From a virus, in the IMG/VR virus record IMGVR_UViG_3300007541_008474, positions 1-30,359 of that record: a DNA stretch of 30,359 nucleotides; one strand, given 5' to 3'. This document shows, piece by piece, positions 1 to 17,110 of the stretch; within the stretch, counting starts at the first letter, position 1; each line of letters begins with the position of its first letter. The notes under the pieces were generated by a model. The model searched no databases. It had not been told where the DNA came from and worked only from the letters and a program-made list of their open reading frames with translations. A program made the position numbers and the translations under genes.

Positions 1-161
1 TCGTCGGCATAGTTGGACAAGTAAAACTCTTTGACCTCAGACTCACTCAACCAGCCTATGAGTTCATTCAGAACATCTTCGGGATCGAGAAGGCCATCCT
101 CGATCTTCTCAGCCAGGAGGTTAGTGTATTCGCGACTACGTTTCAGGGGATGATAATACAT
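1..161 (-). CDS. Small hypothetical protein, C-terminus outside window
   Basis: Open frame of 53 codons starting at the ATG complementary to 159-161 and running off the left edge. The visible N-terminus begins MYYHPLKRSREYTN and is rich in acidic and hydrophobic residues, with no motif I recognise. GGAG lies 7 nt before the ATG. It starts 2 nt after the stop of the SWIM-type gene, so the two are probably co-transcribed. Small proteins of this sort are common in T4-like marine phages; the function is unknown. Confidence 0.7.
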   Translation of the reverse strand, partial: MYYHPLKRSREYTNLLAEKIEDGLLDPEDVLNELIGWLSESEVKEFYLSNYAD

Positions 162-163
162 GA

Positions 164-544
164 TCAGGCTCCAATTGAAAGTTTGGCTTTGACGATTCGG
201 CTATGTTTACAATACTTGTGATACTGGAATCCAATACAATCGCAGGTTACATTCAGACCCTGTACCTGCACCTGATAGGTCTTGCCCGTGGACTTGCTTT
301 TCACGGAAAAGACTCTGAGGTCAATTTTGGTCTTGGGAGCATCGTACCCAATGATATTGGGCTTGAAGATCTGGCTAACAGGAAATTCAGGATTGCCTGT
401 TCGGATGCAGACATAGTTGTTATCCAACCAAGCAGGGTTCTGGACTACTATGCCCGTGTGAGTGGACTCTTGATATTTTACGCCTAGGAGATTGCTAAGA
501 TGTCGAGTCCGGATCTCAGCCCTGGCACCAATTTGGAAGTTCAT
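164..544 (-). CDS. Small SWIM-type zinc-finger protein
   Basis: A 126-aa protein whose C-terminus carries C101-D-C103 and C112-K-H114, i.e. a CxC-x8-CxH array. This matches the SWIM zinc-finger signature, a module known for DNA or protein binding in recombination factors and transposases. The rest is short beta-rich sequence with no catalytic domain visible. The ATG at 544 lies only 6 nt downstream of a strong -10 box, and no other early Met or Shine-Dalgarno site exists, so the mRNA may be leaderless. A role in DNA binding is inferred from the motif alone. Confidence 0.75.
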   Translation of the reverse strand: MNFQIGARAEIRTRHLSNLLGVKYQESTHTGIVVQNPAWLDNNYVCIRTGNPEFPVSQIFKPNIIGYDAPKTKIDLRVFSVKSKSTGKTYQVQVQGLNVTCDCIGFQYHKYCKHSRIVKAKLSIGA

Positions 545-550
545 GATACG

Positions 551-579
551 ATATTAACAGAAAAGGGCCTGTTTGTCAA
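551..579 (-). promoter_or_regulatory. Sigma70-type early promoter inside a terminator
   Basis: On the minus strand TTGACA (579-574) is followed after 17 nt by TAATAT (556-551). It belongs to a family of near-identical promoters in this window. The predicted start falls at about 544, the A of the SWIM gene's ATG. The -35 box lies inside a terminator-like hairpin (562-586). Confidence 0.8.
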
Positions 580-586
580 GCCCTTT
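562..586 (-). terminator. Intrinsic terminator overlapping a promoter
   Basis: In minus-strand RNA a 10-bp stem, AAAGGGCUUG with CAGGCCCUUU (one G-U pair), closes a 5-nt loop and runs into UUUU C U G. It would end leftward transcription coming from 620-1309. The -35 box of the next promoter sits in its 5' arm and loop. Confidence 0.6.
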
Positions 587-619
587 GTGTGAAATATTTT
601 CTTCAATGAAATCAATGAC

Positions 620-802
620 CTAGCCTTCCTCCCGCTCGATTTCACGCATCTTTCGGTCAAATTTTTCTTGGTTTAGCAACCCTTGTTCGCCCAGGCTGTC
701 TATGGCCTGCACTATTCCGACATCTATGCCCTTGATGAAGCAGGCATAACAGGCTAGAAGCATGAGTATGATTTGGACGACCGTCCAGGCTGTATCAGAC
801 AT
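620..802 (-). CDS. Small single-span membrane protein
   Basis: A 60-aa protein with one hydrophobic segment at residues 6-24 (WTVVQIILMLLACYACFIKG) followed by a charged tail ending in REIEREEG. It starts 3 nt after the stop of the SprT-like gene and so is probably read from the same mRNA. There is no recognised domain. It could be a small inner-membrane effector, but nothing in the sequence says what it acts on. Confidence 0.65.
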   Translation of the reverse strand: MSDTAWTVVQIILMLLACYACFIKGIDVGIVQAIDSLGEQGLLNQEKFDRKMREIEREEG

Positions 803-805
803 TAT

Positions 806-1309
806 TCAATCCTTTGGTTGTGGATACCAGGTACCCGCTTCGGTTTCAAAAAAATCGTATAGGTTGCTTGCCTGGAGAAATTTTGCTACCAGACTATTCT
901 CCAATCCATACGCTTCGATTTCCCAGGGATGATCCCAGTAGTCGACATCATCATCATATGGTACGCCATGCCAGGTAGTCACAAACTTTCTTTTGACTAC
1001 CTTATCTTTGAGCTGGCCGTATGCGAATTGTTTGGCGTGTACCATTTCGTGGGCCAGTGTGGTTATGATCGAAAGTCTGGTTCGGTCCTTGTTTAGTAGT
1101 TCAATTTCAAAGTCTCTGGGGCGTGAAAGATCAGCGATATCGCTGGGCCCGCAGAAACCACTGGCAGAGAGTTCATGAGTGCAGATGATTCTAAAGGTTA
1201 GATGTGGTAACATCTTGTGACCGAAAAGATTGGACGCAAATGATCTCGCGGCCTTTCTCATCACAGATGCAAACTTACGATCTCGGGTTCCTCTTACAGT
1301 TACTTGCAT
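806..1309 (-). CDS. SprT-like zinc metalloprotease-family protein
   Basis: A 167-aa protein with H87-E-M-V-H91 inside TTLAHEMVHAKQFAYG, the HExxH zinc site, preceded by a beta strand and followed by a WHG segment and an EIEAYG segment near residues 132-135. This is the layout of SprT/Spartan-like domains. Small SprT-like proteins are frequent in T4-like marine phages; the substrate is unknown. A CATAAATA late-promoter motif lies about 22 nt upstream, with an AGGAGGG ribosome-binding site between them, suggesting late expression apart from the upstream replication genes. Confidence 0.75.
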   Translation of the reverse strand: MQVTVRGTRDRKFASVMRKAARSFASNLFGHKMLPHLTFRIICTHELSASGFCGPSDIADLSRPRDFEIELLNKDRTRLSIITTLAHEMVHAKQFAYGQLKDKVVKRKFVTTWHGVPYDDDVDYWDHPWEIEAYGLENSLVAKFLQASNLYDFFETEAGTWYPQPKD

Positions 1310-1330
1310 TTGGCTTCCCTCCTTCGTAAG

Positions 1331-1338
1331 TATTTATG
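1331..1338 (-). promoter_or_regulatory. T4-like late promoter motif
   Basis: The minus strand reads CATAAATA, matching the NATAAATA form of the T4-type late promoter. With the usual spacing the start would fall near 1325, leaving a short leader that still contains AGGAGGG before the ATG at 1309. Confidence 0.5.
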
Positions 1339-1340
1339 AC

Positions 1341-1487
1341 TTAGTCAGTAAAGTAGCGTGGCTCGTGTTCGTGTGGGTCAATGACTTCCTCAGGCACAGG
1401 TTGTGTCTCGGGCTCAGGTTCGGTCTCGGGCTCAGTATCTGTGCTTGGAATGTGAAATACTGGTGTAACACTAAAAGGATGCTGCAT
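1341..1487 (-). CDS. Small acidic Pro/Glu-repeat protein
   Basis: A 48-aa open frame (ATG at 1487, TAA at 1341) whose middle is a run of Thr-Glu-Pro and Glu-Pro-Glu units, followed by a His/Glu segment (DPHEHEPRYF). AGGAA lies upstream, overlapping the end of the gp41 gene. Low complexity and high negative charge suggest a disordered protein, possibly a DNA mimic or binding tail; that is speculation. It is the last gene before the late promoter. Confidence 0.55.
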   Translation of the reverse strand: MQHPFSVTPVFHIPSTDTEPETEPEPETQPVPEEVIDPHEHEPRYFTD

Positions 1488-1496
1488 GGCTAGTTC

Positions 1497-2897
1497 CTAG
1501 AATTTGAGAGAACTATAATCGGGACCTGCTTTCCTATTTCCTGGATTGTATGATGAAACCTTATCGATGTCAAGGTTCGTAGTACCTTTCGATCCTTTAT
1601 TGATATTCGTCTGGGCTGAACTCTCCAGATCGAACAATCTCATCTTGGCTCTGTCAACACCAATGACAAACTTTCGGTTCATGGTCGGATCGTTATAACG
1701 ATTCTTGAGCTGCTTGACCAAAAGTTGCCCCATGGCTTCCAGATCCTCAGTACTGATTAGTGCAAACATGAAGTCTACTGTGGCTGGCAAACCAAAAGAC
1801 TCTGAGGTATCGGTAAGCTCAACTTCGGTATTTCCATAACCACCTCGAGTCGTCTGTGTGGCACTTAGTATGGGTACGTCGTGCTCAACGGCCATGCCAC
1901 GTAATTCTTCGGCTATGCTCTTGATCAGAGTATAGCTATTGATGTTGGCACCAGATTTGAATCTGGAGCTGGCACAGATATTTAGGTAATCTATGACTAT
2001 GAGATCTGGTCTAAAGTTGCGCTTGAGCTGTAGTTCTTTGAGCAGACTTTTGAAGTGTCCCGTGTGTGCTCCCGCGGTTGGATATTCCTTGATGATTAGA
2101 TTACCCTGAGCCTTTTCTCTGATCTTGGCTACACGATTTTCAAAGATAGGGCGCGGCAAATCTTTGAGACTGTCCATGGTAACATTCATCAAATTGGCAT
2201 CAATTCTTTCGGCAATTCTCTCTTCGGCCATCTCCATGGTAATGTATAGCACATTCTTGCCCTGACTCAGTGTACTAGCCGCTACATGACACATGAACAG
2301 ACTCTTACCAACACCAGTGCCTGCCAGGACGACATTCAGAGTCTTGTTGGGCATACCGCCATTGGTAATCTTGTTCATCATTTCTAAATCAAAGGGTATA
2401 CGATTTTCTACCTTGTGATAGAAATCATATCTGAGACTGGCATCCTGCAAATAGTCATGGCCCACACGACGATCAAATGCCACACCCAGAGCTTCAGATA
2501 ACAGTGTTGGTATGGCATCCTTGCTATGGTTTGTGTCCTTGCCATCGGCAATGGCAATGCTTTTCAGGATGGCATTGTATACTGCTCGGTCCTTGCAAAA
2601 GTTTTCTGTCTCGGTTAGGAGCCAGTTGTTGTCTGCAGTACTGGGCTCTAGTTCCTGAACAATGGCCATGCGCTGGCCATATTCATTCTCATTGAGGTTG
2701 CGTTTGTTCTGCAACTCAACGGTTATGACTTCAGTGTTGGGGCTACTATTATATTCTTTATAGAAGTTTTCAATGATAACAAAGATGTCACGTTCAGAGC
2801 TATCTCTGAAATATTCGGGCTTTACAAAGGGGAGAACTGTTCTGGCATAGTCATTATTGTGGATCAAACTGCTGAGGATCAAGGTCTCGATCTTCAT
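1497..2897 (-). CDS. 41: Replicative DNA helicase, T4 gp41 / DnaB family
   Basis: A 466-aa protein with the DnaB-type RecA fold: Walker A GTGVGKS at residues 193-199, Walker B LIVIDYLN near 300, and downstream TQTTRGG. The N-terminal 140 residues form the helical domain typical of gp41. It unwinds DNA 5' to 3' as a hexamer ahead of gp43 and works with primase gp61, which is not in this window. It starts inside the preceding 109-aa gene, 44 nt before that gene's stop, with AAGGA at good spacing, so translational coupling is likely. Confidence 0.93.
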   Translation of the reverse strand: MKIETLILSSLIHNNDYARTVLPFVKPEYFRDSSERDIFVIIENFYKEYNSSPNTEVITVELQNKRNLNENEYGQRMAIVQELEPSTADNNWLLTETENFCKDRAVYNAILKSIAIADGKDTNHSKDAIPTLLSEALGVAFDRRVGHDYLQDASLRYDFYHKVENRIPFDLEMMNKITNGGMPNKTLNVVLAGTGVGKSLFMCHVAASTLSQGKNVLYITMEMAEERIAERIDANLMNVTMDSLKDLPRPIFENRVAKIREKAQGNLIIKEYPTAGAHTGHFKSLLKELQLKRNFRPDLIVIDYLNICASSRFKSGANINSYTLIKSIAEELRGMAVEHDVPILSATQTTRGGYGNTEVELTDTSESFGLPATVDFMFALISTEDLEAMGQLLVKQLKNRYNDPTMNRKFVIGVDRAKMRLFDLESSAQTNINKGSKGTTNLDIDKVSSYNPGNRKAGPDYSSLKF

Positions 2898-3183
2898 TAC
2901 GGTCCTTCATGAAATTTACTGCGCGCTCTACCATGGTTGCAAGAATGTCCTGTAGTACAGACTCAAAATGAGCCTGGTCCTTACCATAGGGGTCTAGATT
3001 GTCTGGCTTTTGCAGAACCTGATAATCCACAGCCATGCCACCCAGAGGATCTGTTGGATGATCGGCTATGCTCTTGAATGCTATGTAGGTATCTTTCCAG
3101 GGTCCTTCGGTAATCACTACACCCCAGTGTTCTGTACCATGTCTCCAATGTTCAAACATCACTGGCTGCGTCGAACTCATCAT
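2854..3183 (-). CDS. Conserved hypothetical protein between uvsX and gp41
   Basis: A 109-aa soluble protein, rich in acidic and aromatic residues, ending in DRDLDPQQFDPQ. Two Met codons stand in tandem; GAGGAG is better spaced for the second (3180). It overlaps uvsX by 32 nt at its start and gp41 by 44 nt at its end, which is unusually tight packing. Its place between recombinase and helicase hints at a replication-linked role, for instance as a loader or mediator, but no domain is recognisable. Confidence 0.75.
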   Translation of the reverse strand: MMSSTQPVMFEHWRHGTEHWGVVITEGPWKDTYIAFKSIADHPTDPLGGMAVDYQVLQKPDNLDPYGKDQAHFESVLQDILATMVERAVNFMKDRNEDRDLDPQQFDPQ

Positions 3184-4213
3184 TCAGCTCCTCTACACTA
3201 ATGTCATTGGCTACCAGATCACTGGCACTGATTCTGTACTTGGTTTCAATCCAGTCTCTGAATGTCTTGTCTGACATAATTGGCAACCAAAACTCTTTGG
3301 TATATGTGTCCTTGTGTCTGTACTTCTTGTCGGAACCCGCGTGTGCATACCAGCCATTGCTGGGTTTGACTACATGCCCACTCTGTAATGCAATGTCCAA
3401 CAAACCAGACCAGGTACTGATACCACCCTCGAAGCTGACTTCAATGGGAATCTTGCTCTTTTCACGAACATGCCGACTCTTTTCAACATTGATGATAAAA
3501 TTATAACCAACCAGTTCAGTACCTTCTTTTTCCTGCTGGCGCCCAATGATATAAATGTTGTCGGCGCTATAGTATACGCCTGTACCGCCACTGACAACAT
3601 CCTTGGGGAACATACCAATTTCTTTGTAGGTATGATTTACCACAACCATGGGAATGTCTTTGATGGTCAGATGAGGTGTAACCATTCTGAATAGACTCTT
3701 TAGCTGCTTGGCTCGACTCATGTCGGCTACGCTCTTGCCTTCCAGGGCATCTTCAACCTCTTTCTTACTGGCCAGATTGCCTACACTGTCCACAATGATG
3801 ATCAGATGATCACCACGTTCAATGTTATTGAGCTGAGCCATGCTATCATGCTTGAGTTGCTCAATATCAGTTATGGGCGTATGTAGTACCCTGTCGGTAG
3901 AGATACCGAAGCTATCAAAATAAGACTGAGGACTACCAAACTCAGAATCATAAAATAACACAACAGCATCTTCATACTTGTCCAGATATGCCTTAGCGCA
4001 CATTAGAGAGAATGCGGTCTTGAAATGCTTGGACGGGCCCGCAAAAACCGTCAGACCAGGTGTAAGTCCACCATCCAATTTGCCGCTAAGTGCAACATTG
4101 ATCATGGGGACATTGGTCTGTATCATATCCTTGGCACTGAAGAATTTACTTTTGTTCAGTACCTCAGTGTCTTTGATTGTACTATTCTTCTTCAACTTAT
4201 CGATGAGGCTCAT
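3152..4213 (-). CDS. uvsX: UvsX RecA-like recombinase
   Basis: A 353-aa RecA-family ATPase. Walker A is GPSKHFKT (residues 59-66), close to T4 UvsX, and Walker B is LIIIVDS. The GGTGVYYS segment matches the DNA-binding loop region and the C-terminus is acidic. UvsX forms filaments on single-stranded DNA and drives strand exchange for recombination-dependent replication and repair. AAGGAG stands 6 nt before the ATG. It lies downstream of gp43 in the same operon. Confidence 0.93.
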   Translation of the reverse strand: MSLIDKLKKNSTIKDTEVLNKSKFFSAKDMIQTNVPMINVALSGKLDGGLTPGLTVFAGPSKHFKTAFSLMCAKAYLDKYEDAVVLFYDSEFGSPQSYFDSFGISTDRVLHTPITDIEQLKHDSMAQLNNIERGDHLIIIVDSVGNLASKKEVEDALEGKSVADMSRAKQLKSLFRMVTPHLTIKDIPMVVVNHTYKEIGMFPKDVVSGGTGVYYSADNIYIIGRQQEKEGTELVGYNFIINVEKSRHVREKSKIPIEVSFEGGISTWSGLLDIALQSGHVVKPSNGWYAHAGSDKKYRHKDTYTKEFWLPIMSDKTFRDWIETKYRISASDLVANDISVEELNDEFDAASDV

Positions 4214-4275: not shown

Positions 4276-6765
4276 TTAGCCAAAAAGGTCCTCTAGGGTA
4301 GCCTGTGGCTTGATACTCCAGCCTATGCCGCTTAGTATGGTATTCAGGGGTTCAATAAAGGATTTCTGGAACATGGTTTCGTGATCAATGAATTTTTCCA
4401 GACCAAATTCACGGGGAATACTACCAATGAATCCTATGGCATTCTCTCCGATGTGATTTGGTGTCTTTAGATACAGGAACTTGATCTTGTCGCCTTCACG
4501 TATCTGCTCATAGCGTTTTTCCAGACCCTGCTTCTTCAGATGCCAGTTATACAAAAGGCTGGCTCTGACGTGCATGGGAGTAGCCTTGACATAGATTGAG
4601 GTTGAGCTGGCATACTGTTCTAGTCCACTGACACCTCGGGGAAAGGCAATCTGCTCGGGACTAAGATTCTTGTACTCGGCTTCAACCTTGCTAATATAGG
4701 CATGCAGATCCAGCTCGGTCTTGGTCAGGCAAATCTTTACAGCCTCCTTGAGCTTCTCTCTGACATACTCGGGAGTACTGCTCCGAACAATTTCCAGGCC
4801 CATGACCTTGAGCTTGGGTTCGGCATAGGTAACTCCTTCACTGTCCAGCACATTCAGAGCATATCGCTTCTTGGCTACCCAGATGCCACGGTCTGCAATG
4901 ACTTCACGCTTGAAGAATATCTTTTGTTCATAGGCATTGGTATAGTCTGCCAGACCCTTACAGGCTCGATTCAGAACTTCTTCGATCTTTTCCTCACAGA
5001 TCTTATTCAGGATGCTAAGTACCTTTTCCTTGCTCTGATCTTTATAAAATTTATTTACCAAAGTACTCATGGTCACATAGCAGCTATCAGTGTCTGAATA
5101 GAAGCTATAATCGGCATCTTTGGTGCCACAGACCTTGTTTAGCCAGGCATTGAGTTCACGACCAACTACCTGAATGATATACTGGCCTGTCATGGTAATG
5201 CCTTCGGCGATCTTAGAGTCATAGAATCTAAAATACTCATTGGCCCAGGCGCCATAGAGACTGTTCATCTGAATCTTTCGTGCCATCTGGAAATTATTGA
5301 ACTTGGCAATCTGATTCTGATGATAGGGTTGCTTGGTAAGCTCATACTGTGTCTGTGCTTCCAGCATCTGCTTCTTGTACTTCTTGCGATCATCAAACAG
5401 CTTTTGCACAATCTCAGGGAATACACCCAGCTTGTCTGTTCTGAACATGGCACCATTTGATGTCATGCAAACTTTATTGGTTTTCAGATGATCAAGGTCA
5501 GGTGTTCGATCCAGTAATGCATCAACAGTAACATCGGTCTGTCCTGGTATGAGTGTCTCAGGACTTAGATTGTACTGCATGATGATACTGGGATACAGGC
5601 TAGTGGCATCAAAGCTAATTACCCAATCATACTGTCCAGGGCGCGGCTCTTTGACATAGGCACCAACAATCTGTCTGGCTGGTTTATTTTCACGCTGATG
5701 AACAACAATGTTCTTGTTCCAGAGATGATTGTATAGGATACAATCCCAGGTCCGAACTGCGGAAAATACATCACTGATGTTACACTTGGCATCATAGGCC
5801 ATGGTCAGGATGAGCTCAATGAGCTTCATCTTACCTTCGAGCTGGTCAACAAGCTCGGTATCAACCACGTTATACTCTACGAACTTTTGCCAGTCATTGG
5901 TATAGAAATCTCTGAAGCTATCATATTCATCATAGCTAAGTTTTTCCTTGCCCAATTCTACCTTGGCAATGTAGTCTAGCTTGTAGCTCTCCTGTGCAGT
6001 ATAGGTAAATTTCTTGTACAGATCCAGATAGTCCAGAGTATTGATACCCTGAAGCTCCATGATGATCTGTGTCTTACCCATCTTTTCAATTTCACGATCA
6101 TTGATGCGATTCCAGGGGCTCAGAGTATTGGTTAGCTCATCGCCCAGAACACGACGCATGCGATTTACCAGATAGGCAATGTCAAAGAACTCTACGTTCC
6201 AGCCTGTGATGATATGAGGATAGTCGTCAGTCCAGAACTTTAGAAATTTCTTGAACAGATCATATTCATTCTTGCACTGAACATACTGATGGTTTTCCTG
6301 TGTAGGCTCAGCAGGACGGGCACCAAAGGTAACAATCTGCTTGGTGGAATAGTTCTGCATTGTAATGAGCAAAACTTCTTCTATGGGATTTTTCACATCA
6401 GGAAAACCATGTTCAGCCGTAGACTCAATGTCCAGACTGAAGATGCGCATCTGATGTATATCGAAATCTATTTCACCAGGAAAGGTTTCAGTGATATACT
6501 GATAGGCAAAGTTGGTATTGCCATAGATTTCAAAGCCGTCGACATCGCCATATTTCTTGACATAGTCTTTGGCATCATTGATGCTGTCAAAGCGAATGCT
6601 TTCCAGCGGCTTGCCGAATAGGCTGTAATGTGAACTTGTAGGATTGCGGCTTGGTACCCAGAGAGTAGGTTTGAAGTCTACCCGTTCCTGAACTATCTTG
6701 CCGCCATTGATACCACGAACCAGCAGCTTGTTACCAAACTGCTGGATGTTTGTGTAGAAACGCAT
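4276..6765 (-). CDS. 43: DNA polymerase, T4 gp43 family B
   Basis: An 829-aa replicative polymerase. The exonuclease has D112/E114 (Exo I, LDIEST), D195 (Exo II) and Y298-x3-D302 (Exo III). The polymerase has motif A SFDATSLYPS with D386, motif B KIQMNSLYG near 498-505 and motif C YSDTDS with D558/D560, followed by KKRY. All catalytic residues are present, so it should be an active proofreading enzyme. The upstream 20 nt have no good Shine-Dalgarno site, which may mean coupling to spoVR or translational control. It lies directly after the SpoVR gene. Confidence 0.96.
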   Translation of the reverse strand: MRFYTNIQQFGNKLLVRGINGGKIVQERVDFKPTLWVPSRNPTSSHYSLFGKPLESIRFDSINDAKDYVKKYGDVDGFEIYGNTNFAYQYITETFPGEIDFDIHQMRIFSLDIESTAEHGFPDVKNPIEEVLLITMQNYSTKQIVTFGARPAEPTQENHQYVQCKNEYDLFKKFLKFWTDDYPHIITGWNVEFFDIAYLVNRMRRVLGDELTNTLSPWNRINDREIEKMGKTQIIMELQGINTLDYLDLYKKFTYTAQESYKLDYIAKVELGKEKLSYDEYDSFRDFYTNDWQKFVEYNVVDTELVDQLEGKMKLIELILTMAYDAKCNISDVFSAVRTWDCILYNHLWNKNIVVHQRENKPARQIVGAYVKEPRPGQYDWVISFDATSLYPSIIMQYNLSPETLIPGQTDVTVDALLDRTPDLDHLKTNKVCMTSNGAMFRTDKLGVFPEIVQKLFDDRKKYKKQMLEAQTQYELTKQPYHQNQIAKFNNFQMARKIQMNSLYGAWANEYFRFYDSKIAEGITMTGQYIIQVVGRELNAWLNKVCGTKDADYSFYSDTDSCYVTMSTLVNKFYKDQSKEKVLSILNKICEEKIEEVLNRACKGLADYTNAYEQKIFFKREVIADRGIWVAKKRYALNVLDSEGVTYAEPKLKVMGLEIVRSSTPEYVREKLKEAVKICLTKTELDLHAYISKVEAEYKNLSPEQIAFPRGVSGLEQYASSTSIYVKATPMHVRASLLYNWHLKKQGLEKRYEQIREGDKIKFLYLKTPNHIGENAIGFIGSIPREFGLEKFIDHETMFQKSFIEPLNTILSGIGWSIKPQATLEDLFG

Positions 6766-6768
6766 AAT

Positions 6769-8289
6769 TTAGCAAATAACGATGTTTGATGGAAGTGATG
6801 AAGCTGAAGCACTACGGTTGATTGGATCACCACGACTGTCTACCATGATAACAGGATAGCCGCCCCAGAGCTTTTCGATATGAGGCATCATCTTTTGAAT
6901 GTTATCGAGCTTTCGGCCCCGATGTTCAGTGTATTGTAGCAACAATGTACGACTTTTGCGATTGACTTGTTTGACTTCGATCTGTGGTACACTGGCCGCT
7001 CGGAGATACTGATCTGCCAGCATTTCACGAATGCGCTCAAAACCTGAGTCATTGTGTATGGCCTTGACCACATACTTGTCCTTGTCGGCGCGATCATCCC
7101 AGACGCTGAACAGTTTCTGCTGACGAATCACTTCGGGACTTAGCCATTGACGTATGAAGCTTTCGTCTCTGAACTCAGCCACGGCCTCCAGAATTAGTTC
7201 ACGTGAAGTCTTGCCTTTGATTAGTTTACCAAACCAACGCTGATCCTCGGCTGTTGGATTTTCGCACATGCGTTGTATGTCACGCAGCATGGCAAAGCCA
7301 AAGCTATAAGGATTGATACCGCTATAGTAAGGTTTGTCATAATCGGGTTGATACAGTACATTGGTGTGCAATTGCAAAAACTCCAGATGCGCACCCTGTG
7401 TGGTCAGGCCTTTTTCATGAAGTCGGTTCAGAATCTCGTAGTGGGTTAGACTAGCGAATCCTTCGTTCATGACCTTGGTCTGAGCCTGAGGATAAAAATA
7501 CTGAGCAATTTTTCTGACAATGCGTAGTATCTCACGCTGCCAGACCTCGATTTCTGGACTATACTTTTCAAAGAAGTATAGCAGATTCTCTTCGGGTTGC
7601 TCAGGGAAGGGCTTGGTCGCCGCGTCTTTCTTCTTGTTATTCTTGCTCTCTGGAGTGATACGGTAAAGCTCGTTTACCTGAGATTGCAGGTACTCGGCGC
7701 GATCCCGCGCACGATCTTTCTCGGCCTGAACGTTCAGCTTGGTCGGACGCTGATAACGATTGACACCGTAGTCCATGAGAGCATGACAGCTATCTATCCA
7801 TGCCTCAACTTCGGAATGTCCATATCTGGCCTCGGCCTGGTCAATATAGTCCCTGGCAAAGATCAGATAATCGACAATGCTGCTTGCATCTGTCCATTGC
7901 TTGAACAGATAATTGTTCTTGAAGAAATGATTATGGCCAAAGGCCGCGTGAGCTATGACCAGAGCCTGCGTGGTCATGCTATTGTCTTCCATGAGATAGT
8001 TGATGCAGGGACTGCTGTTGATGACTAGCTCATAGGCCAGGCCACTATGGCCCTTCTGATAATTTCTTTGTTCACTGATAAAGTGCTTACCAAAACTCCA
8101 ATGCTTATAATAGATGGGCATGCCTACACTGGTATAGGCATCCAGCATCTGTTCACTGCTGATAATTTCTAGCTGGTTAGGATAGTAATCCAGACCAAGT
8201 TCGTCTCTGGCTACTTGTTCACAGGCGTCATAGACATCATCTAACTGCTTGAAAGTCCAGTCGCTTCCTGACCATAATGGGTTACTCAT
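6769..8289 (-). CDS. spoVR: SpoVR-family protein (YcgB-like)
   Basis: A 506-aa protein homologous to SpoVR/YcgB over its length. It has SGLAYELVINSSPCINYLME, HAAFGHNHFF, the WQREILRIVRKIAQYFYPQ block and MNEGFASLTHYEILNRL. The conserved His and Glu suggest a metal site of unknown chemistry. In Bacillus SpoVR affects spore cortex; in enterobacteria YcgB belongs to the stationary-phase set with YeaG and YeaH. Here it follows the yeaH-like gene by 1 nt, with AAGGA upstream, keeping the bacterial trio together in a phage replication operon. Confidence 0.92.
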   Translation of the reverse strand: MSNPLWSGSDWTFKQLDDVYDACEQVARDELGLDYYPNQLEIISSEQMLDAYTSVGMPIYYKHWSFGKHFISEQRNYQKGHSGLAYELVINSSPCINYLMEDNSMTTQALVIAHAAFGHNHFFKNNYLFKQWTDASSIVDYLIFARDYIDQAEARYGHSEVEAWIDSCHALMDYGVNRYQRPTKLNVQAEKDRARDRAEYLQSQVNELYRITPESKNNKKKDAATKPFPEQPEENLLYFFEKYSPEIEVWQREILRIVRKIAQYFYPQAQTKVMNEGFASLTHYEILNRLHEKGLTTQGAHLEFLQLHTNVLYQPDYDKPYYSGINPYSFGFAMLRDIQRMCENPTAEDQRWFGKLIKGKTSRELILEAVAEFRDESFIRQWLSPEVIRQQKLFSVWDDRADKDKYVVKAIHNDSGFERIREMLADQYLRAASVPQIEVKQVNRKSRTLLLQYTEHRGRKLDNIQKMMPHIEKLWGGYPVIMVDSRGDPINRSASASSLPSNIVIC

Positions 8290-8290
8290 G

Positions 8291-9565
8291 TTAGTCCTTC
8301 AAAAAGAAACTGCGGAAAACTTCCAGTACACTGGATTCATTATACAGTTTTTCCATGCTCAGGTTATCAAACTCATCTTGCAGATCTTCTAGATCGCCCC
8401 AGAGTTGCGATTGACCTTGCAGGCTTCCAACCAGCTGGTTCATGGCTCCATAGTCACGCATGATCTCAACATAGGCCATGAACTGAGCTTTCTTCAGTAT
8501 GGGTCCTAGTTTGTTACGTACGGCTTTGCCATCGTCTCCGACGTTATCACCATCACTGGCCTGAGCCAGGTAGACATTCCAGTTATCCTTGTAACGCTCT
8601 TTGATGATACGATCACACAGATCATAGGCTGTACTAACAACTGTACCACCGCTTTCACGCTTGGTGAAGAATTCTTCTTCGTTACATTCCTCAGCAGTTT
8701 CATGATGACGAACGAACACTACATCAATGTTCTTGTATCTGCGTTGCAGAAACAGGTGCAAGAGTATGAAGAATTTCTTGGCTATGGTCTTTTCACGCTC
8801 GCCCATGCTAAAGCTAACGTCTAGAATACAGAACACCACGGCCTGTGTAATAGGCTTGGGTACAGCCACATAATTGTTGAACCTAAGATCAACATTGTCC
8901 AGAAATCCTACGGCATTGGAGCGAACACGAAGCCTGCGAATCTCTTCGGTAATCTCAGCACGACGTTCTTCGTCTGTGGTATTTTCAAGCTCGGCTTCAA
9001 GTTCATGAATTTTCTTGAGCTTGGGATACTTGAGAGCAATACGTCGGCTTAGACCAGCCATGGCGGTTCGTTCAATGTTCAGGTTACTGGGCAGGCCTGC
9101 AGTTGTAAACCCTGCACGCTGCTTCTGAACCGAAGTCATTTGCTTTTCGGATTTCTTGATGAGATCGGGTAGCTCCAGATCCTCAAAAATCAGATCCAGA
9201 TATTCGTCATAGCTTAGCAGGAACTGAAATTCATCGTCGCCGCCTTGCCCACGAGCTCCTTTGGTACCACGGCCACCGCCAGACCCAGACTTGGGTTTGT
9301 CGATGTGATCACCAGGAACATAGTCTTTGTTACCAGGTAAAACATAATCCCAGTCACCACTGTCCTGTTTATGACCAAATCTGGGCTCGTCAGTTCCAAT
9401 ACCAGGAAGACTGATTTCCTGTTCACCAGTATCAGAAATGCTGCGTTTGGTAATATGCTTTTTCGCAGCTTCTCTGATCTGTTTCTTGAAGCGATCCAAG
9501 AACCTCTGACGATTGCTGAGGTTCTTTTTGCCAGGATTTTTCCTGCGATCGATAATAATCGGCAT
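8291..9565 (-). CDS. yeaH: YeaH/YhbH family VWA protein (DUF444)
   Basis: A 424-aa protein. The N-terminus is basic (RRKNPGKKNLSNRQRFLDRF), then comes a Gly-rich linker, and the C-terminal half is a von Willebrand A-like domain with the metal-site motif D-V-S-F-S in ILDVSFSMGE. Motifs FVRHHETAEE and ESGGTVVSTAYD are typical of the family. In E. coli YeaH is encoded with kinase YeaG and may be its partner. It starts 3 nt after the prkA stop and has only a weak ribosome-binding site, so it is probably translationally coupled. Confidence 0.92.
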   Translation of the reverse strand: MPIIIDRRKNPGKKNLSNRQRFLDRFKKQIREAAKKHITKRSISDTGEQEISLPGIGTDEPRFGHKQDSGDWDYVLPGNKDYVPGDHIDKPKSGSGGGRGTKGARGQGGDDEFQFLLSYDEYLDLIFEDLELPDLIKKSEKQMTSVQKQRAGFTTAGLPSNLNIERTAMAGLSRRIALKYPKLKKIHELEAELENTTDEERRAEITEEIRRLRVRSNAVGFLDNVDLRFNNYVAVPKPITQAVVFCILDVSFSMGEREKTIAKKFFILLHLFLQRRYKNIDVVFVRHHETAEECNEEEFFTKRESGGTVVSTAYDLCDRIIKERYKDNWNVYLAQASDGDNVGDDGKAVRNKLGPILKKAQFMAYVEIMRDYGAMNQLVGSLQGQSQLWGDLEDLQDEFDNLSMEKLYNESSVLEVFRSFFLKD

Positions 9566-9568
9566 GGT

Positions 9569-11518
9569 TTAGCCCGCCTTGTTTACTCGCATGTACCATT
9601 CGACCAGACGCTTGACCTGTTTGGCTGTATAACCTTTTTCCATCATACGACCAACAAAGTCATCGTGTTTCTTCTGGTCGGACTGTGTTGCCTTGGCTCC
9701 GAAGCTAATTACTGGTAACAGATCCTCGGTGCTGGCAAACATTTTCTTCTCGATTACCTTGCGAAGCTTCTCATAGCTGGTCCAGGCAACTTCGCCGCCT
9801 GTCTTGGCTCGCTGGCGCAGGGTAAACTGAACAACCTCATTACGGAAGTCCTTGGGATTGGCAATACCTGCAGGCTTCTCAATCTTCTCGAGCTCGGTGT
9901 TCAGGACACCACGATCAAACAACTGTCCTGTATCAGGATCCTTGAAGTCAATTTCCTGCATCCAATGATCAGCGTACTCAATGTAACGATCGAAAAGATT
10001 CTGACCATAGTCATTGTAGGCTTCCAGATAATTTTGCTGGATCTCATTGCCAATGAATTCAGCATAATCCTTGATCAGGTAGCTCTTGATAAAGCCCAGG
10101 TAACGCGCTTCGGTGTCGGCACTAAACTGTTCACGACGAATGGCTTCTTCCAGAACTAACATTAGATGCACTGGATCGGCTGCGACTTCCTCGGGATCAT
10201 GGTTGAAGGTCTTGCTCAGGATCTTGAACGCAAAACGTGTACTGATTCCGTTCATGCCTTCATCAACACCTGCAACATCACGGTATTCCTGCATGCTCTT
10301 GCTGCGTGGGTCTGTCTCTTTGATGTTCTGTCCATCATAGACGCGCATTTTGCTATAAGGATTACTGTTCTCATGTTCCTTGAGACGAGTCAGTACACAA
10401 AACTCTGAAAGCAATTTCAGGGTCAGTGGAGCGCAACTGGCCTTGCGAAGGTCTGAACTTTCTAACATCTTGGTATAGATGCTCTGCTCTTCGCTAACAC
10501 GCAAGCAGTATGGTACCTTGATGACACAGATACGATCCAGGAAGGCTTCATTGTTCTTGTTGTTCTTGAAGGTCTGCCATTCAGACTCGTTACTGTGAGC
10601 CAGGACCACACCATTGAAAGGAATGGCGCTAATTGCCTCAGTACCCACATAATTGCCTTCCTGAGTAGCAGTCAGCAATGGATGCAGGACCTTGATAGGT
10701 GCCTTGAACATCTCAACAAATTCCATGAGACCCTGGTTACCACGGCACAGGGCACCGCTGAAGCTATAGCTGTCTGGATCATTCTGGCTGAAGTGTTCCA
10801 GCTTACGAATGTCAGTCTTACCAACCAGGCTGCTAATGTCCTGATTATTTTCATCACCAGGCTCGGTCTTGACAACTGCAATCTGTTCAAGTTTGCTGGG
10901 CATGAGCTTGACAACACTGAACTTGCTTAGGTCGCCGTTGAACTCTTTGAGGCGCTTGGTAGCCCAGGGACTGGGAATGGTATTCAGATAACGCTTATTG
11001 ATACCAAACTGGTCAGCCATGACCTTGTGATAACGACTATGGCTAAACAGGCCCAGTGGTGATTCAAACACTGGACTGATTTCGTCTTCTGTGGCTAGTA
11101 CATAGACAGGGAATGTCTCCATGAGTTCCTTGAGACGTTCTGCCAGACTTGATTTACCACCACCAACAGGACCCAGAAGGTACAGGATCTGTTTGCGTTC
11201 TTCCAGCCCCTGGGCAGCATGTTTGAAGTATCCAACAATGCGCTCAATGGTATCTTCCATGCCATAGAAGTCTCTGAACGCTGGATAGGTTTTGATGGTA
11301 CGATTCAAGAAGATGCGACTCAGTCGTGTATCTTCACTGGTGTCAACGAATTCTGGTTCGCCAATGGCTTTTACCATACGCTCAGGAGCGGTAGCATAGG
11401 CCATGTGATCCTGTTTACACAATTCCAAATACTCAGGAACTGTCAGGCGTTCAGAACGGGTTTCCGACCAGTTGTTCTGAAATAGGTTGGCGATATCCAG
11501 CTTATTGTCCTTTTCCAT
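9569..11518 (-). CDS. prkA: PrkA/YeaG AAA+ serine protein kinase
   Basis: A 649-aa protein of normal family length. The N-terminal AAA domain has Walker A GPVGGGKS (residues 116-123) and the conserved start YLELCKQDHMAYATAPERM. The region FRGNQG-like LCRGNQGLMEFVEMFKAP and the C-terminal PrkA domain (residues about 400-640) are also present. Family members phosphorylate proteins under starvation and may have Lon-like activity. GAGGA precedes the ATG by 8 nt. It heads the trio and follows speD, so it should be made early with the replication proteins. The targets cannot be read from sequence. Confidence 0.94.
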   Translation of the reverse strand: MEKDNKLDIANLFQNNWSETRSERLTVPEYLELCKQDHMAYATAPERMVKAIGEPEFVDTSEDTRLSRIFLNRTIKTYPAFRDFYGMEDTIERIVGYFKHAAQGLEERKQILYLLGPVGGGKSSLAERLKELMETFPVYVLATEDEISPVFESPLGLFSHSRYHKVMADQFGINKRYLNTIPSPWATKRLKEFNGDLSKFSVVKLMPSKLEQIAVVKTEPGDENNQDISSLVGKTDIRKLEHFSQNDPDSYSFSGALCRGNQGLMEFVEMFKAPIKVLHPLLTATQEGNYVGTEAISAIPFNGVVLAHSNESEWQTFKNNKNNEAFLDRICVIKVPYCLRVSEEQSIYTKMLESSDLRKASCAPLTLKLLSEFCVLTRLKEHENSNPYSKMRVYDGQNIKETDPRSKSMQEYRDVAGVDEGMNGISTRFAFKILSKTFNHDPEEVAADPVHLMLVLEEAIRREQFSADTEARYLGFIKSYLIKDYAEFIGNEIQQNYLEAYNDYGQNLFDRYIEYADHWMQEIDFKDPDTGQLFDRGVLNTELEKIEKPAGIANPKDFRNEVVQFTLRQRAKTGGEVAWTSYEKLRKVIEKKMFASTEDLLPVISFGAKATQSDQKKHDDFVGRMMEKGYTAKQVKRLVEWYMRVNKAG

Positions 11519-11552: not shown

Positions 11553-11924
11553 CTATACTGGTATTTCGGTTAGACAAGTTTCTCTATCTAAATACTTATA
11601 CTCTAGTTTTACTGGATCAAATTCTCGAATCTTGTCCAGCACAACATTGGGGTCTAGATCGCTGCAGGTATAAACATCTAATTGCAGCAGACCTGGATCT
11701 GACTCATCCCAGACATGTAATGCAATATGACTGGTTTCTATGATTACTACACCAGTTACTCCACGATTTCCTGGTACATCCAGGTAGGTAGTAATTGGAC
11801 CCTGAAGAATTTTCATGCCAATATCTGTTACCATCTGAGTAAGCCAGCCATGTACCCAGTTTGGATCACTGGGAGTATTTCTGGTTTCAGCTCTGATAAT
11901 CAGATGCAGGTGCCTATTAGCCAT
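11553..11924 (-). CDS. speD: S-adenosylmethionine decarboxylase proenzyme (SpeD)
   Basis: A 123-aa protein of the short bacterial/archaeal AdoMetDC class. The self-cleavage serine that becomes the pyruvoyl group is S65 in ETSHIALHVW; catalytic H70 and C87 (VYTCSD) are also in place. The residue before the serine is Thr, where the Thermotoga enzyme has Glu, which may affect processing. The enzyme makes decarboxylated AdoMet, the aminopropyl donor for spermidine. AGGAGG stands 6 nt before the ATG. SpeD is a known auxiliary gene of marine T4-like phages. It is the first gene of the leftward replication operon. Confidence 0.93.
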   Translation of the reverse strand: MANRHLHLIIRAETRNTPSDPNWVHGWLTQMVTDIGMKILQGPITTYLDVPGNRGVTGVVIIETSHIALHVWDESDPGLLQLDVYTCSDLDPNVVLDKIREFDPVKLEYKYLDRETCLTEIPV

Positions 11925-12130: not shown

Positions 12131-12406
12131 ATGGACTTCTTTTCATTTCTGGCAGAAGTCGGATTCCCCATAGCTGCATCACTGGCTGCTGGTTATTTCG
12201 TATTTCTCACTATAAAGTTCATTCTAGCATCTGTTACTGATACTGTCAATGGTTTAACAGTAATTATTGACAATTTGGATACTAGAGTTGATACCATGAC
12301 AAACGATCTCCAAAGAGTTGACGTAAAAATCAGTCACGCTCTGGGTGTCGAACCTGACTACGACCGAATCAGTCGAGCCGAGCAAAAAGACCACAGGAGA
12401 GACTAA
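12131..12406 (+). CDS. Small membrane protein, paralogue of the next gene
   Basis: A 91-aa protein with an N-terminal membrane span (GFPIAASLAAGYFVFLTIKF) and a heptad-like helical C-terminus (DTVNGLTVIIDNLDTRVDTM) ending in charged residues. I chose the ATG at 12131 because a GTG at 12104 abuts the previous stop with no ribosome-binding site, whereas AGGAT precedes 12131. The GFPxxAxxxxGYFVF motif recurs in the next gene, showing duplication. The layout, one anchor plus coiled coil, resembles YvrJ/BhlA-like or holin-type phage proteins. Confidence 0.75.
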   Translation: MDFFSFLAEVGFPIAASLAAGYFVFLTIKFILASVTDTVNGLTVIIDNLDTRVDTMTNDLQRVDVKISHALGVEPDYDRISRAEQKDHRRD

Positions 12407-14311: not shown

Positions 14312-14605
14312 TTACCAGAACTCTACGGCCCTACCGAAACCTAATACATTGACTCCTAGGAAATAGCAGGCCGTTAGAAACGGAAAGGCTAAACCACGCA
14401 TCCTAGTAGCGAAGAAACTGCACACGCTACCAGCAAAAAAGAATGGGTATATCCAACGCATATCTGGACTCTGGGCACTGATAGCCAGAACCAGACTGGC
14501 TCCCACTGTGAACAGGAAGCCCAGCATTTCGATTTTGAATGCCAGGGGGTTGCTGTTGTAACTTTTTCTCCACCAGGCTCGTATCTCATCAATCTTTGAA
14601 AACAT
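14312..14605 (-). CDS. Three-span membrane protein
   Basis: A 97-aa protein with a basic N-terminus (KIDEIRAWWRKSYNSNP) and three hydrophobic segments near residues 29-45, 51-66 and 73-90. No transporter signature is clear. It overlaps the end of the GNAT-like gene by 17 nt. Similar small multi-span proteins occur in T4-like marine phages; function unknown. Confidence 0.7.
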   Translation of the reverse strand: MFSKIDEIRAWWRKSYNSNPLAFKIEMLGFLFTVGASLVLAISAQSPDMRWIYPFFFAGSVCSFFATRMRGLAFPFLTACYFLGVNVLGFGRAVEFW

Positions 14606-15029
14606 ATTCGAAGTTCACTGTTTCAGTATTCATTCTAAATTCTGTGGCACCATTCTTTAGGTGAAATCTTCGAGCAAGTTCAGTGTGTGGACTCAGAGTA
14701 ACAAACCTGGTTATGTGTGGCATGCTTTCTCTGATGTATTTGGATACTTCAAGTATGATGTCGCGACCAGCTCCAGGCTTGTAACTCCAGACTGTATAGA
14801 ATACAGCGGTGTCGGGACTTAGACATTCTACAAATAGTTCTGATTCGGTACTGGGAACATGACCCAGGTAGCTAACACAGATAACTGCTGCAGGGTGTGG
14901 TCTCTCAAGCACAAACACATCACGATTTGTACCTATGCGTTGGTCATGAGGTATAAAGGGACGCACAGGATCGTCACGCAGAAGCGCAAAATACGCATCA
15001 TTGGAACTTAGTAATCTGGTCAGGGTCAT
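14589..15029 (-). CDS. GNAT-like acetyltransferase-fold protein
   Basis: A 146-aa protein. Strands AVICVSYLGHV and AVFYTVWSYKPGAG, then a helix (REDIILEVSKYI-type) and FVTLSPHTELARRFHLKNGA match the order of the GNAT fold, but the acetyl-CoA loop Q/RxxGxG/A is only approximate (KPGAGRD). Activity is therefore uncertain. Its ATG overlaps the stop of the dehydrogenase gene (ATGA), so it is probably co-translated with the two amino-acid enzymes and may modify an amine or amino acid. Confidence 0.6.
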   Translation of the reverse strand: MTLTRLLSSNDAYFALLRDDPVRPFIPHDQRIGTNRDVFVLERPHPAAVICVSYLGHVPSTESELFVECLSPDTAVFYTVWSYKPGAGRDIILEVSKYIRESMPHITRFVTLSPHTELARRFHLKNGATEFRMNTETVNFEYVFKD

Positions 15030-16039
15030 GTTATCTCCCTATAGGCTTGATTATACTTACCATTCCAGATTAGATCAAAGTTCAGATCTTCCTGTTTGAT
15101 CCAGCCCATGGTCTTTGGCAACTGGTTATGTAACCAAAGATTTAGAACATTGATGACACCATCACCAGTGCTTCGCTGTATGGCTGTATGCTCATCAGTG
15201 CAGGTAATTACGTTGTTGTATTCACGAACTGTATACTGACCCTTGATCCAGCCTGTGGCTGTAATTAGAATTCGAACTTCGTCCTGTATGGTCTGGGGAA
15301 CATGATCCTTGAACAATTTTACAAATGTATCAAATTCTTTGGCCATGTTCAGATCGTCATGCAGGAACTTCATGTGGCTCCAGTGTCCAGGCCAGCGCAG
15401 AGTTCTGTATAGTACTCCGTCGGCTCGACCCAACCAGGTTTCGGCCAGGCTACCAATACCACCGCTGGTAGTAGCAGCTTCCAGAGTCTGTCCACGATGA
15501 GTTACAAAGTCAACATACTGCAGGGGTGCAATCTCAGTCAGCACACCATTGAAAATTGCTGTGCAGGGATGTATGTATTCGTTGATTAGTCCTTCGGCGC
15601 TCCAGGTGCGATAGTACTGCATCTGGTTGGTTGCGTTCACAGGCAAGGCACCTACCATGATCTGAATGTTACGAACAGTATTAAATTCTTTGGCTAGGTT
15701 ATTTGCTATAATACTTACCATGCCTGGTGCCAGACCACACTGGGTAACAAAGCGTCCATGTGTCAGAGTCTTGACAAAATCTGTAACCTGCACACTCTCA
15801 GTCAGGTCAAAGTAGTCTTTGCCGTGGTCATTGCACACGCTGGCAATCTGTTTGTTTAGACTGAATGGTGTGGTTGCCAGGATACCGTCGTTCTGGGAAA
15901 TGATTCCACGAAGAACAGTTTCATCGCTTAGATCATGACCTGTGGTGATATCAAAGCCCTGCACATCCCAACCATCTTTGAAAAGACGATCCAGGACATA
16001 GCTTCCGATATGGCCCAGACCCAGAATTGCTAGTTTCAT
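15026..16039 (-). CDS. Saccharopine/lysine dehydrogenase-like oxidoreductase
   Basis: A 337-aa protein with an N-terminal Rossmann motif GLGHIGS (residues 7-13) for NAD(P). Family motifs are DYFDLTES, CGLAPGMVSIIANNLA, TSGGIGSLAETW and YRTLRWPGHWSHMKFL. These fit the saccharopine-dehydrogenase-like superfamily, nearest in length to L-lysine dehydrogenases; carboxyspermidine dehydrogenases are related but longer. The reaction is likely reductive or oxidative handling of a lysine-like amine. It follows the FAD enzyme by 9 nt, suggesting a shared pathway. The exact substrate cannot be assigned. Confidence 0.85.
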   Translation of the reverse strand: MKLAILGLGHIGSYVLDRLFKDGWDVQGFDITTGHDLSDETVLRGIISQNDGILATTPFSLNKQIASVCNDHGKDYFDLTESVQVTDFVKTLTHGRFVTQCGLAPGMVSIIANNLAKEFNTVRNIQIMVGALPVNATNQMQYYRTWSAEGLINEYIHPCTAIFNGVLTEIAPLQYVDFVTHRGQTLEAATTSGGIGSLAETWLGRADGVLYRTLRWPGHWSHMKFLHDDLNMAKEFDTFVKLFKDHVPQTIQDEVRILITATGWIKGQYTVREYNNVITCTDEHTAIQRSTGDGVINVLNLWLHNQLPKTMGWIKQEDLNFDLIWNGKYNQAYREIT

Positions 16040-16048
16040 ATGTTTACC

Positions 16049-17110
16049 TCAGATTACGTATTTTTCAATGTCGGGCTTACGATTCAATTCATAGGCACTA
16101 AGGTCCAGAGTTGGCTGATCCTGTATCATTAGCGATACCTGATGACCTACTGCAGGACTGTGCATGAGTCCGCGCCCAGTAAATCCTGTTGCGAAATAAA
16201 TGTTGCCACGTTTATCAATGATGGCATTGTTATCTATGGTGCTTGAATCATAGTAGCCGCTCCAGGCACCCTGGCATCTGGCGGCTTCGAATATGCCTGG
16301 AAATCTGTGATACAGTAATTCCCAGACCCGATCCCAGCTTTGCAAATCAGGTTCTAGATCTGGGGCTGACCAGGTACCGTTGCCATCGTAGCCAACTATG
16401 TACTGATTGCCCTCGGGACGAATATAGATTCCTGTGATTAGATCTGCCACCAAGGGCAGACTAGGAATATGCTGTGCTGGACTGCTGACATGAAATACAG
16501 TGTGCTTGTGTCCAGCCACAGGAATGTCTAGTCCAAAATGTCGTCCTACCTGGCCTGTCCAGCATCCCGAGGCCAGTACTATGGCATCGGCACGGTCATG
16601 GTCAGCCTGCAGGCCGTCCAGCCAGTTCCAGTTTGCACCAGCTGCTCGAGCCTCGGTAACAAACCAGGAATGCAGGGTAGTAGGATCTATCCAGCCTTCG
16701 CTTTGGTCAAAGGTCTGGCATCCACGCCAGACATCGTCTACGTTTAGATAATCATGCAGAGTTTTTAGCTGATCGGGACGCAGGCAACGAGTGCTGGCTC
16801 CGTGCTTTTTCTGTAGTCTAAAACTAGAACGACAATCCTGAGCCTGATCTGCACCAAACAGCATCAGGTAGCCATTGCCTGTAAATTTTAGACCAGGTAT
16901 GTTTTTGATAAAGTCGATGCTGTATCGACTCATCTGTATGTTGGTTGCTGTACTATACTGACTTCGAAGTCCACCGCAACTACGAGCAAAACTGCTCTGA
17001 CTCAGTAGTCTATCTTTTTCGAAGACCTGAACTTCAATGCCAGGTGTTCTGGTAAGATGATAGGCAATGCTGGCTCCAATAATGCCACCGCCTAGGATAT
17101 GGACTCGCAT
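16049..17110 (-). CDS. FAD-dependent amino-acid/amine oxidoreductase (DAO family)
   Basis: A 353-aa protein with the FAD ADP-binding motif GGGIIGASIAYHL (residues 7-19), the E at the end of the second strand (QVFEKD), SFARSCGGLRSQYS and the C-terminal FATGFTGRGLMHSPAVG that contacts the flavin. This is the DAO / sarcosine oxidase-like / glycine oxidase group, which oxidises amines or amino acids with release of an imine. Its length is normal for the group. It lies directly after tRNA-Phe and upstream of the dehydrogenase-like gene. Confidence 0.88.
   Translation of the reverse strand: MRVHILGGGIIGASIAYHLTRTPGIEVQVFEKDRLLSQSSFARSCGGLRSQYSTATNIQMSRYSIDFIKNIPGLKFTGNGYLMLFGADQAQDCRSSFRLQKKHGASTRCLRPDQLKTLHDYLNVDDVWRGCQTFDQSEGWIDPTTLHSWFVTEARAAGANWNWLDGLQADHDRADAIVLASGCWTGQVGRHFGLDIPVAGHKHTVFHVSSPAQHIPSLPLVADLITGIYIRPEGNQYIVGYDGNGTWSAPDLEPDLQSWDRVWELLYHRFPGIFEAARCQGAWSGYYDSSTIDNNAIIDKRGNIYFATGFTGRGLMHSPAVGHQVSLMIQDQPTLDLSAYELNRKPDIEKYVI

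Follow-up and report, generated by a model that had tools for sequence, protein, structure and literature searches.

A stretch of viral DNA of 30,359 bases, which comprises positions 1 to 30,359 of the IMG/VR virus record IMGVR_UViG_3300007541_008474 and is called the window in the following, was found to carry homologues of the bacterial genes prkA (yeaG), yeaH and spoVR (ycgB) in one block directly upstream of a phage DNA polymerase gene. The three genes have intact motifs, are conserved as a unit, are under purifying selection, and have spread laterally among large phages. The bacterial trio is widespread and affects starvation survival, while there is no agreed biochemistry for it. It is proposed here, with slightly less than even confidence, that the viral genes are a phage copy of this bacterial stress machine, which would be swapped as one cassette among unrelated large phages, be transcribed together with replication genes and steer host physiology.

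The trio in a phage replication region

The window appears to be part of a T4-like phage, with genes for a family B DNA polymerase, UvsX, a gp41-type helicase, a clamp-loader fragment and a RegA-type translational regulator, and it also contains an HSP20 gene and 19 tRNAs. These hallmark genes surround the trio, which, together with the phage clades described below, places the trio in a phage genome and not in host DNA. Among named relatives, the polymerases of Synechococcus phages are the best matches of the polymerase (49-51% identity), and the best matches in a DNA-level search of the window against named phages were restricted to the tRNA cluster. The following features were annotated, all of them on the minus strand:

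9569..11518, minus: prkA (yeaG) homologue, 649 amino acids, with an AAA+ domain and a PrkA C-terminal domain
8291..9565, minus: yeaH (DUF444) homologue, 424 amino acids, with a C-terminal von Willebrand A (vWA) domain carrying a metal ion-dependent adhesion site (MIDAS) motif
6769..8289, minus: spoVR (ycgB) homologue, 506 amino acids
11150..11173, minus: Walker A motif GPVGGGKS of PrkA, residues 116-123 (K122 corresponds to E. coli K116), found by alignment, coordinates from residue numbers
11553..11924, minus: speD-like S-adenosylmethionine decarboxylase gene (Pfam PF02675, 7.7e-15)
4276..6765, minus: T4-like family B DNA polymerase (gp43) gene, directly downstream of spoVR (phrog_262, E 0)
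3152..4213, minus: uvsX recombinase gene (phrog_97, 5.8e-93)
1497..2897, minus: gp41-like replicative helicase gene (phrog_19, 2.3e-132)
12221..12249, minus: promoter-like TTGACA-17-TAGAAT upstream of speD, with TG before the second hexamer (11/12 matches in a consensus scan; alone no evidence of function)

By their coordinates, the genes are separated by very short gaps (speD-34 bp-prkA-3 bp-yeaH-1 bp-spoVR-3 bp-polB), and uvsX and the gp41 gene follow downstream of polB. The gaps of 1-3 bp and the promoter-like site before speD suggest that the trio is co-transcribed with the replication genes, and speD is probably the first gene of the operon. The identical arrangement was present in three other IMG/VR contigs at 99-100% identity (L002, L003 and L004; L-numbers denote the loci and contigs compared here), and thus the locus is not an assembly chimera of a single record. 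Chance as an explanation of the trio in the window is remote. An Rfam scan of six trio loci yielded one tRNA and no other RNA.

The initial annotation of this DNA had described a full-length trio with intact motifs between speD and the DNA polymerase gene, and this was confirmed with the open reading frames, Pfam and NCBIfam; its description as a bacterial-type partnership inside a phage replication operon was also upheld. PrkA matched nearly the whole profiles PF08298 (AAA_PrkA, 7.7e-174) and PF06798 (PrkA C-terminal, 6.2e-67) and reached 1179 bits with NCBIfam PRK15455, compared to a curated cut-off of 576. YeaH covered nearly the whole profile PF04285 (DUF444, 2.1e-136) and was above the curated cut-off of PRK05325. 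The same was true for SpoVR, with nearly whole profiles of PF04293 (1.6e-160) and PF24755 (SpoVR_C, 1.5e-9), and 723.6 bits with PRK11767 versus a curated cut-off of 679.

Changes in catalytic residues had been named beforehand as the observation that would speak against an intact PrkA, and an alignment was searched for them. None were found. The window protein shares 430 of 643 aligned residues with E. coli YeaG, the function of which is lost in the mutants K116A, R232A and K426A (PMC4664914). The corresponding residues K122, R238 and K432 are present in the window, and they are retained in all 87 distinct viral PrkA rows; the Walker A lysine is also retained in all 79 bacterial rows. The Thermus-phage forms have Asp at the position of E. 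coli K426. A sequence search identified solved structural relatives of PrkA (9xip, 9xiq and 9xir, E 5e-51), and no meaningful solved-structure match of YeaH or SpoVR was obtained in this way. In YeaH the residues of the MIDAS motif (DxSxS, T, D), i.e., D249, S251, S253, T308 and D338, are invariant. The YeaH model had a predicted local distance difference test (pLDDT) value of 79, and vWA domains filled its fold search with Z values of about 15-17, including NorD (9qhe) of the AAA+/vWA pair NorQ-NorD.

The selection pressure was estimated by comparison of the window with its nearest relative, the locus L084, to which PrkA is 92%, YeaH 81% and SpoVR 87% identical. The ratios of nonsynonymous to synonymous substitution rates (dN/dS) were 0.064 for PrkA, 0.087 for YeaH and 0.054 for SpoVR, compared to 0.052 for uvsX and 0.138 for polB, and these values are rough because synonymous sites are near saturation. 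The values of the trio are close to that of uvsX and below that of polB, and the three genes are under purifying selection.

Spread and origin of the cassette

When viral contigs were scanned, PrkA as query revealed 129 relatives and SpoVR 119. Of 155 viral loci, 138 contain the complete trio on one strand as PrkA-YeaH-SpoVR, and so do 76 of 80 bacterial loci; some of the viral loci are overlapping stretches of one contig, and many of the exceptions are cut off close to a contig edge. After thinning, 71 viral loci were kept, which represent about 42 lineages at 85% identity. A terminase gene above the cut-off was present in 12 of the 23 trio-bearing records tested, among them contigs 415 and 578 kb in length. 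The neighbors of the trio were very mixed, and no constant fourth partner gene was found over the 42 lineages; the most common neighbors were a ClpP-like gene in six lineages and ligase-like and HNH genes in five each. In three jumbo-phage lineages (L035, L099, L106 and relatives) a gene named from its sequence as translation elongation factor G-like (699 amino acids) is located at least 59 bp downstream of spoVR. Odd gene lengths at L035-like loci had raised the possibility of a recoded stop or a frameshift in prkA, which was rejected, as the tblastn match ran through an upstream stop and the intact open reading frame starts later.

The trio is therefore not peculiar to the window phage, nor is a phage trio new as a kind: apart from its presence in about 42 viral lineages, it had already been annotated in Thermus phages. 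PrkA is encoded by the isolated phages YS40, TMA, phiLo, MN1 and Lalka8 (annotated as serine kinase, SpoVR, and conserved or vWA protein), and YS40, phiLo, MN1 and Lalka8 carry the whole trio, annotated gene by gene. They differ from the window in the order YeaH-SpoVR-PrkA, in a PrkA identity of only about 25-27% and in belonging to an unrelated phage group. Closer homologues of all three proteins were found in the uncultured huge phages LR745206, LR756504 and LR756502 (634-642 kb), with about 60-63% PrkA identity and with the gene order of the window where the genes are contiguous, although these phages are of different lineages from the window phage. In LR756502 spoVR is distant from the other two genes, and in LR756504 spoVR contains an intein. 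In addition, work on the Eastern Tropical North Pacific oxygen minimum zone listed spoVR among viral auxiliary genes (PMC8940887), and both SpoVR and PrkA have been reported for the jumbo phage RsoM2USA (PMC8504454). In the parts of these two papers that concern them, the genes are treated singly as sporulation or replication genes and not as a three-gene unit. No paper that treats the trio as one viral unit was found in the part of the literature that was searched.

Compared to the bacterial trio (E. coli yeaG-yeaH and ycgB, and the three-gene operon of the Pseudomonas type), the window is alike in families, gene order, strand and motifs, while in E. coli ycgB lies apart from yeaGH. It differs in that its PrkA nests in a phage clade and in that the trio is part of a phage operon ending in the DNA polymerase gene. 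In the PrkA tree the window grouped with L005, which is the L084 contig, with a support of 100, and further within groups of six viral rows (98), eleven viral rows (99) and 33 rows, all of them viral (87). The SpoVR and YeaH trees had matching neighbors, namely L005, L006-L008 and L010 where complete, followed by the jumbo contigs L011, L016 and L017 together with L018 and L100. In all three trees the window genes were located in phage clades beside jumbo phages (279-578 kb) and not beside a bacterial donor. The nearest bacterial PrkA proteins were 66-69% identical among the matches listed, in contrast to 79-92% for the nearest phages. The matching trees and the identities indicate that the trio travels as a unit and that it most likely came from the phage pool and not recently from a bacterium. 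A recent direct capture from a bacterial host was unsupported by the PrkA, SpoVR and YeaH trees, and the view that the trio was taken straight from the host had to be abandoned, because the window genes belong, with those of jumbo phages, to a clade made up of phages alone. Overall, several exchanges between viruses and bacteria have occurred, because the label switches several times on the tree.

A different case is the Enterobacter phage LAU1 (L318, MN688132.1), which has yeaG-yeaH at the end of its record (1-3308). Its PrkA falls within the Gammaproteobacteria, close to, e.g., Vibrionaceae and Ferrimonas, and the two genes, which group with chromosomal genes of this class, are probably host DNA. 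Hitchhiking host DNA is a likely explanation for LAU1, and not for the window trio.

Among T4-like contigs with a polymerase at least 55% identical, the trio was found at polB only in the genotype of the window and in L084. Of the 41 trio-free polB loci, 29 could be read for 2 kb or more upstream of polB, and 20 related records, which reach 181 kb and may be fragments, yielded no PrkA. Since T4-like relatives are devoid of it, the trio can be regarded as a mobile accessory cassette. A loss of the module in close relatives without effect had been put forward as an argument against the initial interpretation, and the relatives indeed lack it, which bears out one half of this argument. Upstream of polB, L159 and L168 have a cyclase-like gene (named by eye from the sequence) instead of the trio. 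In L084 the trio is split between yeaH and spoVR by a cassette of 2.7 kb (6220-8898), which encodes a MazE-like antitoxin-type protein and, on the opposite strand, a 305-amino-acid protein without a family match. Furthermore, L084 has a dimethylarginine dimethylaminohydrolase (DDAH)-like gene (2092-2934) upstream of prkA, at the place of speD in the window, and both genes may touch arginine or polyamine metabolism. A second site was found in L008, which is T4-like by its gp59 and gp32 genes and has the order pho4-prkA-yeaH-spoVR-gp59-gp32. As it differs from the polB site, the cassette occupies T4-like replication-gene neighborhoods at two places. The window also encodes a PHO4 phosphate transporter (25020-26012), and a 65% identical copy is located directly before prkA in L008 (8025-9023), so that the transporter and the trio may move in the same gene pool.

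A predicted metal site in SpoVR

The SpoVR model had a pLDDT value of 88, and a second-look fold alignment resulted in a list that was dominated by zincin peptidases of many families. The top match was the Colwellia lipoprotein 3o0y (Z 13.1, 201 residues, root mean square deviation 3.8 Å), and further matches included M1 peptidases, DPP III, ACE, MATCAP and oligoendopeptidase F. Helical models can reach a Z value of 13 by chance, and therefore further evidence on the fold was sought. Two motifs could form a zincin-like metal site (coordinates from residue numbers):

7933..7950, minus: HAAFGH, SpoVR residues 114-119, predicted first half of the metal site
7453..7467, minus: NEGFA, SpoVR residues 275-279, with E276 as predicted third metal ligand

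Both motifs turned out to be nearly invariant. Among 158 SpoVR sequences G118, H119, E276 and A279 were conserved in all, and H114 as well as Y328 in 157. HxxxGH and [NH]EGxA persist down to the SpoVR of Thermus phages (HVLGH and HEGFA), at about 25% identity. In the model E276 lies within a predicted helix (272-292). [NH]EGxA agrees with the third-ligand motif NExxA of gluzincins, and hhalign placed NEGxA on the NExxA of M1 peptidases. The hhalign comparison of the SpoVR profile with 20 M1 peptidase sequences gave a score of 39.8 (E 9e-4), whereas 40 column shuffles reached 22.5 at most, the reversed profile 19.8 and unrelated pairs 16-25. In this comparison the SpoVR helix at about 250-270 was paired with the HExxH helix of M1, which is probably misplaced; an alternative alignment puts VIAHAAFGHN on vIAHE-LAHQ and is by itself at noise level.

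In addition, in-frame inteins were discovered at four different sites of SpoVR, in phages and in one bacterium. Two of these sites split a motif, namely HAA|xGH (L018/L155) and NEG|xA (huge phage LR756504). A third directly follows NEGWA in a Competibacteraceae bacterium, the intein of which matches LAGLIDADG (E 5e-22), and the fourth is behind residue 52 (L012/L013/L100). The intein-bearing spoVR loci are:

L018, 13775-14740
L155
L012, L013 and L100
L321, 16459-18372
L257, 9165-11405

With TIGR01445 two inteins were above the cut-off and that of L013 was below; the L018 insert had no family match and was called an intein solely because it starts with Cys and ends with GN-Cys. In PrkA and YeaH no comparable insert was detected. 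Inteins favor conserved active sites. Three of the four sites fall in the HAAxGH or NEGxA motifs, which supports a functional site, albeit not independently of the conservation. No paper on inteins in SpoVR was found in the literature searched.

Several results weigh against a zincin-like SpoVR. Foldseek alone gave no match to the SpoVR model better than E 0.96, and the hhalign probability for M1 was just 22.7%. Moreover, the conserved motif (HAAFGH, or HVLGH in Thermus phages) is devoid of the catalytic Glu known from HExxH: the position of the general base is Ala or Val, and only one of the 158 sequences contains any HExxH string. For this reason SpoVR does not qualify as a classical zincin peptidase, and it need not be an enzyme at all. 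It may instead have a metal site with other chemistry, or a role in binding. Taken together, SpoVR resembles proteolytic enzymes and may be a metal-binding relative of them with a zincin-like fold, and its metal binding is predicted from the conserved motifs. The more specific idea of SpoVR as a metalloenzyme with an M1-like zincin fold but altered catalytic chemistry, and of PrkA-YeaH as its dedicated AAA+/vWA partner, is tentative and less likely than not; if it is right, the trio would be an ATP-driven metalloenzyme machine of a new class and a host-physiology switch spread by large phages. New are the zincin-like model of SpoVR, the near-invariant HxxxGH and [NH]EGxA motifs without the catalytic Glu, and the intein sites in both motifs. 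The predicted metal site, backed by the intein sites, turns a vague "sporulation protein" into testable ligands.

Possible functions and further genes of the window

In E. coli, YeaG and YeaH jointly quiesce metabolism in nitrogen starvation (PMC10954441, PMC4664914) and have been described as a "metabolic brake" (PMC10954441). In the mechanism favored here PrkA would be an AAA+ ATPase motor and YeaH its vWA adaptor, and SpoVR would be a zincin-like metalloprotein that both act with or on. The three proteins would thus form a complex, in which PrkA-YeaH may either load or remodel the metal site of SpoVR or deliver client proteins to SpoVR. During infection, the trio might impose or tune the brake and the tolerance of starvation that YeaG-YeaH confer on E. 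coli, and phage production would thereby continue in a host short of nutrients. The initial suggestions of a reprogrammed host metabolism or of starved cells that stay productive are thus plausible. The presence of a whole, mobile and selected trio in many large phages suggests that the proteins act jointly and that phages profit from controlling the stress state. The pair NorQ-NorD is similar in that genes for an AAA+ ATPase, a vWA protein and possibly a metalloprotein occur together; the similarity need not extend to the AAA+ class of PrkA or to metal insertion. Two points speak against a phage-borne brake: close T4-like relatives do without the trio, and a slower metabolism, as caused by the brake in E. 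coli, is no evident advantage for a lytic phage.

The resemblance of SpoVR to zincin peptidases in fold and motifs is also consistent with a split AAA+ metalloprotease, i.e., an FtsH/YME1-like machine with the peptidase on a separate chain, in which PrkA would unfold, YeaH select and SpoVR cut proteins, thereby clearing host regulators. The PrkA of Bacillus anthracis was indeed likened to the clade III AAA+ of YME1, albeit without the protease residues, and a weak protease activity of B. subtilis PrkA is cited in the same paper (PMC13001217). However, the activity of the B. anthracis protein was negligible, a contaminant was suggested as a possible source of the reported activity (PMC13001217), and with Ala or Val as general base the classical zincin mechanism is not expected in SpoVR. 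A split protease is therefore unlikely.

A Ser/Thr kinase module, which corresponds to the usual annotation and in which PrkA would phosphorylate host proteins and rewire metabolism with YeaH and SpoVR as regulators or targets, is quite unlikely. E. coli YeaG has been called a kinase and requires K426 of its C-terminal domain for complementation (PMC4664914), and the equivalent K432 is present in each of the 87 viral rows. On the other hand, this position is Asp in the Thermus-phage forms, the well-defined part of PrkA is the AAA+ ATPase domain, and purified B. anthracis PrkA had no kinase activity, which was explained by a kinase-like domain without a P-loop (PMC13001217). Because of this recent result a kinase role is doubtful and disputed in the literature, and "kinase" should not be assumed for PrkA.

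It could also be envisaged that the phage copy counteracts a shutdown by disrupting the host YeaG-YeaH or an abortive stress or toxin-antitoxin response, e.g., by mixed poisoned complexes. YeaH has indeed diverged more from its E. coli form than PrkA (41% versus 67% identity). Nevertheless, the conserved functional motifs are intact, unlike those expected of a dominant negative, and apart from a weak AAA+ match the trio did not match known defence proteins, making this distinctly unlikely. A phage-intrinsic role, with the AAA+/vWA pair remodeling replication or head proteins of the phage itself, would fit the location beside the polymerase gene in the window and beside gp59/gp32 in L008, as well as that between portal/head genes and terminase in the Thermus phage Lalka8. 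It is very unlikely in the light of the mixed neighbors over about 42 lineages, without a constant partner, and of T4-like relatives that replicate without the trio. Passenger DNA without benefit, for which LAU1 at least shows that host DNA can enter phage records, is hardly conceivable for a trio that belongs to a phage clade, was found in several samples and is under strong purifying selection, as dN/dS values of 0.05-0.09 contradict it.

Two further gene groups of the window were noticed, both on the minus strand. A MotA/TolQ/ExbB-like membrane protein (21160-21627; Pfam 1.6e-9, weak ZorA matches in PADLOC, 6e-7) is followed by a protein with a likely membrane helix at its start (20532-21176), and the two could be a proton-channel-like pair. 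Adjacent genes encode an FAD-dependent oxidoreductase (DAO; 16049-17110) and a saccharopine dehydrogenase C-terminal-like protein (15026-16039), and the adjoining gene (14589-15029) has a weak, sub-threshold match to malonyl-CoA decarboxylase. A metabolic cluster of three genes such as this one (14589-17110) is unusual for a phage.

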